Part shown: one piece after another, positions 1-2,797 of the stretch | How the letters are laid out: each line of letters opens with the position of its first letter | Position numbering within the stretch: position 1 is the first letter of the stretch | Assembly: GCA_028695415.1 (NCBI GenBank) | Contig: JAQVIY010000002.1 | Coordinates: forward strand, 68,883 to 116,950 | From: Minisyncoccota bacterium | GTDB taxonomy: Bacteria; Patescibacteriota; Minisyncoccia; Phycocordibacterales; Phycocordibacteraceae | DNA length: 48,068 nucleotides | Direction: 5' to 3' | The notes under the pieces: model-generated | What the model was told of the DNA's origin: nothing | Seen by the model: the letters and a program-made list of their open reading frames with translations, nothing else | The model's database searches: none | Program-made: the position numbers and the translations under genes

Positions 1-1021
1 TGAAATCCGTTGATATCATGGGGAACACCGAAAGCGAAGGCAGTGCACTGGTACGTTCCTGACGCTCAAACACGAAAGCCAGGGTAGCGAAGAGGATTAG
101 ATACCCTCGTAGTCCTGGCCCTCAACGTTGCTCGCTCGCTTTACGGAGTATCGACCCTCTGTGAGGCTAAGCTAACGCGGTAAGCGAGCCGCCTGGGTAG
201 TACGATCGCAAGATTAAAACTCAAAGGAATAGACGGGGACTCGCACAAGCAGTGGATTATGCGGCTTAATTCGTTGATAAACGAAGAACCTTACCAAGGT
301 TAGAAACCCAGCTGCATCCTCTCTGAAAGGAGAGGAGCCTTCGAGGGTGCTGGGCAGGTGATGCATGGTCGTCGTCAGTTCGTGGTTTGAACTGTTCCCT
401 TCAGTGGGGTAACGAACGCAACCCCCGTTGTCTGTTGCCTATATGGCCAGGCGAGACTGCTCCCTCACGGGAGAGGAAGGTGGGGATGACGCCAGATCAG
501 CATGTCCCTTGATACCTTGGGCTGCACGCATAATACAATGGGCGGTACAACGGGTCGCAATGCCGTAAGGCGGAGCCAATCCTTATAAAACCGCCCCCAG
601 TACGGATCGAGGTCTGCAACCGACCTCGTGAAGCCGGAATTGCTAGTAATCGCAGGTCAGCCAAACTGCGGTGAATACGTTCTCGAGTCTTGTACTCATT
701 CAAAAATGTGCTTGGTAGTCATTCAATCCAGTCCGTTCAAATCGGACCCTCCTCCGGGAGCGTAGCGAACGAACAGTCGATATACCGCGAGGTTGTCGGC
801 GGAGAGATCTAGTAGCAAAAAGCAGCCCTCCTGTAGAGATACAGAGCGTATGTGGGACCCATTCTGGTGAGTAATGGGGAACTACTTCACAATCGCGTTG
901 AGCGGATGCAAGGAACGGAATGAATGATGACCCAAGGAGATCTCACAGGGATCGAGATGTTATGAACACCTATGAGAAGTCAGCTGTGTCGTAGTACCAT
1001 GCGTCAAGTTATACTTTATGC

Positions 1022-1480
1022 ATGGAAAGGACACTTCCAGTAGTAAGTAACGAATATGTTGTCGGACTTACGGATGGCGAGGGGTGCTTCTATGTAAATA
1101 TGGGAGTTTCTTCTCGCTATCGAGCAGGATACCGCGTGCAATTGCATTTTCACCTGAAGATGCAAGAGCGCGATAGAGAACTGCTCGAAAAAGTGCGTAA
1201 CACAATAGGATGCGGCGAAGTCTACTTTCAAAAAGAGCAACGCGCCAATCACTGTCAGTGTTATCGCTATACCGTGAGTTCAGAAAAGGATATACAGGAA
1301 ACAGTAATCCCTTTCTTCAAACAATATCCGTTACAAAGTGCGTCGAAGGGTGCGAGTTTTGAGATTTTCTGCAAGATCGCTTCTCTTGTAAAAGAGAAAA
1401 AGCATCTTACACCTGAAGGTCTTGAAGAAATTCGTGAACTCAAATCGCGCATGAATCAAAAAACTGCTGGACTCGCGTAG
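1022..1480 (+). CDS. LAGLIDADG homing endonuclease encoded in group II intron
   Basis: This 152-residue protein has a single LAGLIDADG motif (VVGLTDGEGC, residues 13-22), as in single-motif homing endonucleases, which cut DNA as homodimers. It lies in the domain IV position of the intron and, by homology, would cut intron-less 16S genes near the 1398/1399 junction. The start ATG at 1022 comes just after a TATACT-like element. The stop codon TAG (1478-1480) falls inside domain V, so the last codons and the catalytic RNA helix share sequence. LAGLIDADG proteins in group II introns are uncommon; the usual partner is a reverse transcriptase. It could instead act mainly as a splicing maturase. Confidence 0.85.
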   Translation: MERTLPVVSNEYVVGLTDGEGCFYVNMGVSSRYRAGYRVQLHFHLKMQERDRELLEKVRNTIGCGEVYFQKEQRANHCQCYRYTVSSEKDIQETVIPFFKQYPLQSASKGASFEIFCKIASLVKEKKHLTPEGLEEIRELKSRMNQKTAGLA

Positions 1481-1532
1481 TACGAGAAATTCGTATGCTA
1501 CGTGGGAACGCAAAGACGTCTCGGTCTATTGC
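1473..1532 (+). other. Group II intron domains V and VI
   Basis: Domain V (1473-1505) has a 9-bp lower stem, a two-nucleotide AT bulge at 1495-1496, a short upper stem and a GAAA-containing loop. A CGC triad at 1474-1476 pairs with GTG at 1502-1504, with a central G-U wobble, which is the accepted catalytic-triad arrangement. It is one nucleotide shorter than the typical 34. Domain VI (1510-1532) has two 4-bp stems, GCAA/TTGC and AGAC/GTCT, separated only by the unpaired A1528, the expected branch-point position. Confidence 0.8.
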
Positions 1533-1622
1533 AATCCGCCCGTCAAGTCAAGGGAGCTGGGGGTGCCCGAAGGTCTGCCTCGCGCAGGACTACGGCAAAT
1601 TCAGTGACAAGGACTAAGTCGT

Positions 1623-2400: not shown

Positions 2401-2444
2401 AACAAGGCACGGGTAGCGGAAGCTGTTCGTGGAACATATCCAAT

Positions 2445-2640
2445 TTGGAATCGCTATTGCCCGAAAGGCGTAGCATGTCGATACGATTCGCAAGAATCGT
2501 TGGAGATAGCAGTTGTCCATAAACACTGCTCGAGCGCCAGGGAACGTAATCTGGTGGTCGGTTGAGAGCCACATATGAGCTCTCAACTGGGACAGAATAG
2601 GCGGAACAAAAGAGCGCACACAAACATCTTTTCAGTGACT
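2445..2640 (+). other. Structured 16S 3' spacer without a gene
   Basis: No credible CDS is seen here. The stretch holds several perfect hairpins: ACGATTC-GCAA-GAATCGT (about 2482-2500) and GTTGAGAGC with GCTCTCAAC (about 2560-2586). A shorter one lies around CCCGAAAGG at 2460. It is probably transcribed 16S trailer and may carry rRNA processing signals. A third intron was considered, but no 3' exon resembling a 16S tail was found. Confidence 0.4.
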
Positions 2641-2676
2641 CAACACAAAACGCCCCTTTGGGGGCGTTTTGTGTTG
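2641..2676 (+). terminator. Intrinsic terminator after 16S rRNA
   Basis: A long near-perfect hairpin, CAACACAAAACGCCCC against GGGGCGTTTTGTGTTG with a short T-rich loop, follows the 16S trailer. There is no T-run after the stem, but the 3' arm holds TTTT. It would separate 16S from the tRNA gene. Confidence 0.7.
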
Positions 2677-2724
2677 AGGTGGAAAGATAATGAGATTTTT
2701 GCTAGTATCAATAAGTTCTTTATC

Positions 2725-2797
2725 GCACGCTTAGCTCAGTTGGTAGAGCACTCGACTGATACTCGAGCGGTCCTAGGTTCGACTCCTAGAGCGTGCA
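2725..2797 (+). tRNA. tRNA-Ile (anticodon GAT)
   Basis: Full cloverleaf of 73 nt. The acceptor stem is GCACGCT/AGCGTGC and the D arm is AGCTCAGTTGGTAGAGC. The anticodon stem CTCGA/TCGAG has loop CTGATAC, and the T arm is CTAGG-TTCGACT-CCTAG. The discriminator is A2797. The next bases are CCG, so CCA is not encoded. tRNA-Ile after 16S is the common bacterial arrangement, but here a terminator lies between them and no tRNA-Ala or 23S follows. Confidence 0.96.

Follow-up and report, generated by a model that had tools for sequence, protein, structure and literature searches.

A 16S rRNA gene of a Patescibacteria (CPR) genome is interrupted in its decoding-site strand by 837 nt carrying a LAGLIDADG gene. 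This locus raises the question of which kind of intron it is, how it leaves the rRNA and how it moves when no reverse transcriptase is encoded within the element (699–1535). The window, that is, the whole stretch of DNA that was analysed, is 48,068 nt long and starts inside the 16S gene. The host genome comprises 728 kb on 16 contigs, is 96.8% complete and has a single 16S gene.

The interrupted 16S rRNA gene

Within the window, the 16S gene has two interruptions, a group II intron at 699–1535 and a group I intron at 1623–2400. The features of the first interruption and its exons are as follows.

1–698, + strand: 16S rRNA exon 1, E. coli ~690–1398 (Rfam SSU_rRNA_bacteria, 629 bits)
693–698, + strand: IBS1 TACTCA, the final six bases of exon 1 (exact complement of 868–873; covaries in relatives)
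699–1535, + strand: whole group II intron, 837 nt (exon continuity, empty sites in relatives, structure)
699–707, + strand: A/T-rich 5′ linker (nearly all relatives have one of similar length and composition)
711–936, + strand: domain I, closing helix 711–729 with 917–936 (many compensatory pairs in an RNAalifold consensus of 15 relatives)
858–878, + strand: EBS1 hairpin, stem 858–863 with 873–878 (consensus pairs with double changes)
867–873, + strand: G867 and EBS1 868–873 TGAGTA (delta-like position Watson–Crick in 81/86 relatives)
937–981, + strand: domain II/III helix region (consensus fold)
988–1032, + strand: domain IV basal hairpin, containing the ORF start (consensus fold; sub-threshold Rfam RF01998 at 959–1032)
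1022–1480, + strand: LAGLIDADG_1 homing endonuclease ORF, 152 aa, single motif VVGLTDGEG (Pfam 83.8 bits; PDB relatives; dN/dS)
1472–1506, + strand: domain V (CGC triad 1474–1476, two-base bulge, GAAAT loop, family covariance model)
1510–1535, + strand: domain VI, bulged A1528, 3′ end AAT (fold; relatives, roughly)
1536–1622, + strand: 16S rRNA exon 2, E. coli 1399–1498 (Rfam partial SSU match 1539–1624)

Exon 1 ends with GTACTCA at 698, corresponding to E. coli 1398 (longer form, ...TTGTACTCA). Exon 2 starts at 1536, corresponding to E. coli 1399, with CCGCCCGTC (longer form, CCGCCCGTCA). For this numbering, GTACACACCGCCCGT was taken to be E. coli 1392–1406. The intron appears to be a recent or patchily kept insertion, because the joined exon sequence TTGTACWCACCGCCCGTCA (also written TTGTACTCACCGCCCGTC) is uninterrupted in 18 of 38 close relatives and absent from the window genome. 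Nine of these 18 relatives belong to the same genus as the window. The empty sites bear out the initial annotation, which had placed a group II intron at 699–1535 between E. coli 1398 and 1399.

A GUGYG-like motif is located not at the 5′ splice site but 7–9 nt inside the intron, as GUGCU at 708 or AUGUG at 706, and likewise in the relatives. Among group II introns with LAGLIDADG homing endonucleases (LHEs), such a 5′ linker has been described as a variation (PMC13190283). Therefore, the missing GUGYG at the splice site does not alone bar membership in group II.

The group I intron at 1623–2400 follows E. coli position 1498 (Rfam, 55.4 bits) and has a LAGLIDADG_3 ORF at 1732–2367. Instead of the expected GGATCACCTCC, the 16S 3′ end (window 2401–2455) has GTGGAACATATCC. 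The relatives L033–L037, L040, L043 and L005 likewise have no CACCTCC downstream, and the window's clade seems to be devoid of an anti-Shine-Dalgarno sequence. The 3′ flank of the 16S (window 2455–2725) has a terminator-like hairpin and tRNA-Ile and is conserved in L035; no 23S follows in the window.

Relatives, ribozyme fold and exon recognition

Homologues of the LHE were found by protein search in 80 of 379 Patescibacteria genomes, many of them in other rRNA introns. With alignment A1, 80 further loci were obtained from GTDB contigs. The initial annotation had proposed to search other CPR 16S genes for the same site, and about 90 distinct introns were parsed at 16S 1396–1403. Common to them are an A/T-rich 5′ linker with a GYGC..GGCAG-type motif after it, the EBS1 hairpin, a GUCAGC..UAGUA motif in the region of domains III/IV, the LHE ORF and domains V and VI. 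The linker is shorter in a few outliers (L018, L025, and L031).

The single-sequence fold of 693–1021 was uninformative (z −1.47), and an alignment fold of 15 relatives was used in its place. Of the 65 pairs in the RNAalifold consensus of the 5′ part, 50 have at least one compensatory change. This consensus takes in the closing helix of domain I, the stem of EBS1, domain II/III and the base of domain IV. In domain V, 99.3% of the cells were paired over 32 distinct relatives, and 7 of the 13 pairs had changed on both sides. The covariation score was 0.548, against 0.182 for the shuffled control and at most 0.122 for slid controls. The CGC triad is invariant and its G.U pair is retained in 31 of the 32 relatives; a separate domain V count was made over 50 sequences. 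We take the triad and the domain V sequence to resemble those of IIC introns, and the intron backbone looks IIC-like. The stretch of domains V and VI in the window folds at z = −3.07 with A1528 bulged. This residue is 8 nt from the intron 3′ end, within the 7–8 nt expected of group II introns. The bulged A was counted in most relatives at register 1398, being kept in the window's clade and mostly not in the 1399 clade, as a rough guide only, for the automatic count took part of domain V into some segments.

The initial annotation had looked to covariance models for domains V and VI, with a mixed outcome. The general group II domain V model of Rfam had no match in the window. RF01998 (D1D4-1) remained sub-threshold there, with 26.8 against 35 bits, and no other group II family was found up to E 10. 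RF01998 was above threshold in three of nine relatives scanned (L008, L016, and L025). Since the general models of Rfam miss the window intron, a family covariance model was built. It gave domain V 64.1 bits as the sole copy in the genome, the window sequence being part of the training set. The Rfam scores are not decisive for the two domains, and the family-specific model together with the covariation settles the question in favour of what had been annotated.

The six-base pairing of EBS1 868–873 (TGAGTA) with IBS1 693–698 (TACTCA), also annotated initially, is exact. With the sites placed by exon homology alone, the EBS1 loop contained a perfect complement to the final five bases of exon 1 in 79 of 84 introns, whereas shuffling the loops among introns gave exact 5-bp matches in 39 on average and 50 at most; related introns are not independent in this statistic or in the following one. 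The base 5′ of EBS1 was complementary to the first 3′-exon base in 81 of 86 introns (G-C 74, A-T 3, C-G 3, T-A 1), a count as high as in none of 20,000 shuffles, and one that leans slightly to pairing because EBS1 was taken into account in siting some borderline cases (L044, L046, L089 and L103, among others). The delta-like partners in the window would be G867 and C1536, the first base of the 3′ exon. This contact may resemble the delta–delta′ contact of IIA introns, though the backbone looks IIC.

At least six adjacent insertion registers are occupied among the relatives, and EBS1 is re-matched to each. The exon/EBS1 pairings are GTACA/TGTAC at 1396, GTACTC/GAGTAC at 1397, ACTCA/TGAGT and ACACA/TGTGT at 1398, CTCAC/GTGAG at 1399, CTCACC/GGTGAG at 1400, and ACCGCC/GGCGGT at 1403. 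The last is that of L008, whose group II intron, in the region 1080–2070, has EBS1 GGCGGT. The covariation in these pairings shows that EBS1 follows each change of exon or insertion register.

Two further observations were made on these genes. The 16S gene of L008 apparently has two more introns (group I-like, LAGLIDADG). At 16S position 1400, the exon has U instead of the usual C in L076, L082, and L096, and also in L024 and L029; in the first three, A replaces G as the base 5′ of EBS1.

The LAGLIDADG enzyme and the mode of spread

The ORF at 1022–1480 matched Pfam PF00961 (LAGLIDADG_1) with an E value of 1.8e-23 and 83.8 bits, so that the LAGLIDADG assignment within domain IV, like the lack of a reverse transcriptase in the element, stands as annotated. 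The acidic residue is present in the VVGLTDGEG motif, and D-G-E-G is invariant in alignment A1. The nearest structures in a profile search were of the I-OnuI / I-SmaMI type (E 1e-64 to 1e-51), which places the protein in the same fold family. However, I-OnuI and I-SmaMI are two-motif monomers, whereas the window protein has one motif in 152 residues. Because of its single motif, it presumably acts as a homodimer, as does the CPR enzyme I-ShaI. The latter, an LHE of a CPR rRNA intron, is a homodimer shown to cut its own insertion site (PMC11270868). The dN/dS of the ORF is 0.05–0.10, and 0.05–0.08 against L033–L036, with dS above 1, which argues that the protein is kept by strong purifying selection.

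The ORF overlaps domain V by 9 nt (1472–1480), its stop codon (1478–1480) being inside the 5′ strand of that domain. In L006, L008, and L009, the LHE frame reads through all of domain V. Translation and splicing would thus be likely to exclude each other. Neither this overlap nor the internal position of the GUGYG-like motif had been part of the initial annotation.

We consider it highly probable that the insertion is a mobile IIC-like group II intron after 16S position 1398, probably self-splicing, guided by EBS1 and spread by its own LAGLIDADG enzyme. The intron RNA would fold around the EBS1–IBS1 pairing, the fold and the exon pairing both being seen in covariation. From its structure, it would most likely excise itself from the pre-rRNA, joining 698 to 1536. 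The first splicing step may well be hydrolysis rather than branching at A1528, because 7–9 nt precede the GUGYG-like motif. The single-motif protein from the domain IV ORF, probably a homodimer, would cut 16S alleles without the intron, at the junction or close to it, as is expected from its family. Repair of the double-strand break would then spread the intron, as family and selection suggest, with EBS1 being re-matched upon a change of exon or register.

An unlikely alternative, though one with some evidence on its side, is that the endonuclease is a passenger and that retrohoming or reverse splicing, served by a reverse transcriptase acting in trans, accounts for most of the movement. The registers shift by 1–5 nt with matching EBS1 changes, as RNA-guided targeting predicts, and two RVT_1 ORFs are present elsewhere in the genome, outside the window (L127 and L128; genome G000, C2:330-944 and C8:68564-69220). 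These two were rejected as group II maturases, with 144 and 140 bits against the NCBIfam cut-off of 300 and no maturase domain in Pfam; they look more like DGR-type reverse transcriptases. Their scores, far below the group II cut-off, count against a supply in trans, as does the presence of no further intron copies in the genome, and the strong purifying selection on the endonuclease ORF is contrary to a passenger role.

It was also considered that RNases might cut out an intervening sequence without ligation, so that the 16S would be fragmented and the ribozyme-like fold a relic. Such removal is known from bacterial 23S. However, a break in the decoding-site strand, which holds the present insertion, should be harmful. 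The domain V triad, the EBS1–IBS1 pairing and the delta-position pair are maintained at several registers over about 90 introns, and they speak against unligated removal because only splicing requires them. We regard it as very improbable. A dead, vertically inherited remnant with neither splicing nor mobility is hardly credible: stop codons are found in the ORF of L011, L012, and L015, but the window ORF is intact and constrained, presence and absence vary within one genus, and the ribozyme covaries.

Distribution and comparison with known introns

The intron family described above is patchily distributed, domain V being detected by the family model in 30 of the 379 Patescibacteria genomes. 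In the LHE tree, the window groups with L033–L036. The registers have shifted several times, because well-supported branches require the 1399 label to change at least six times and the 1398 label at least four times. The introns at 1396 and 1397 have their own separate LHE subfamily.

Related group II introns were also found in DPANN 16S genes (L089, L103, L084, L125, and L126). The introns L089 (Woesearchaeota), L103 (Nanoarchaeota) and L084 cluster inside the CPR clade of the LHE tree, and their rRNA is archaeal by Rfam. The L084 contig is titled Candidatus Amesbacteria, yet both its 16S and 23S score as archaeal, and we take it to be mis-binned or mislabelled. Domain V was detected in four of 237 genomes of the archaeal phylum of these introns, in one case beside archaeal 16S and 23S on a 624-kb contig. 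On this contig (L125), the stretch read had no ORF of at least 110 aa. The simplest reading is transfer from CPR to DPANN. In the open-licence literature searched, no archaeal introns of this type are described.

The 16S introns of giant sulfur bacteria, the rns-1396 family, reportedly go back to Salman et al. 2012. In the account of Liu et al. 2026, rns-1396 of Thiotrichaceae is a IIC intron with a 5′ terminal linker, a single-motif LHE in domain IV and no EBS2, and bacterial cases are limited to the Thiotrichaceae lineage, CPR not being included (PMC13190283). The window intron has the features of this family, namely a 16S insertion near 1396–1400, a 5′ linker and a single-motif LHE in domain IV. 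The likeness, drawn from the published description, extends to essentially the same 16S place, the linker in all members, the one-base 3′ exon contact and possibly the IIC class (PMC13190283). On the other hand, the hosts differ, and the window intron is at register 1398 and not at 1396, the rns-1396 site, which is occupied among the relatives only by the L016/L017/L104 type. Fungal and green-algal mitochondrial introns (rns-952, rnl-2059, and others) likewise combine a group II ribozyme with a LAGLIDADG enzyme, and some have 5′ linkers and an altered domain VI. However, they have IIA1/IIB backbones, other sites and mostly two-motif enzymes (PMC13190283).

The initial annotation had expected a CPR example to widen the range of such introns. 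This expectation was overtaken by Tsurumaki et al. 2024, who count 53 group II introns in CPR at 16S position ~1400, with LAGLIDADG genes in 39 of the 53 and reverse transcriptase in none, and propose DNA-based homing (PMC11270868). The statement of a Thiotrichaceae-only range in bacteria is contradicted by these CPR data. The CPR 16IS9 group II intron-like insertions of that report are like the window intron in gene, place, host, LAGLIDADG ORF and lack of reverse transcriptase. There, they are placed only approximately against E. coli, and the main text gives neither splice registers nor EBS1 changes and mentions no 5′ linker and no archaeal members (PMC11270868). In comparison, the register shifts with guide changes, the 3′-exon contact and the archaeal members may be new.

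The window intron is thus one more case of an already described class. Its relatives, about 90 introns, are a natural series with joint changes of exon, register and guide sequence. With this series, one can test how a group II intron without reverse transcriptase finds new sites and whether hydrolytic splicing accompanies the 5′ linker. The archaeal members widen the range described so far (fungi, green algae, sulfur bacteria, CPR), and they suggest that a ribosomal intron has passed between bacteria and archaea. We judge it about evenly balanced that one IIC-like LAGLIDADG intron lineage spans CPR and DPANN, and perhaps the giant sulfur bacteria, repeatedly re-registering within 8 nt of the 16S decoding strand with EBS1 and its adjacent base matched each time. 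If so, protein-guided DNA homing would be combined with RNA-guided site choice in this lineage, and the overlap of the ORF with domain V would tie translation of the enzyme to splicing.
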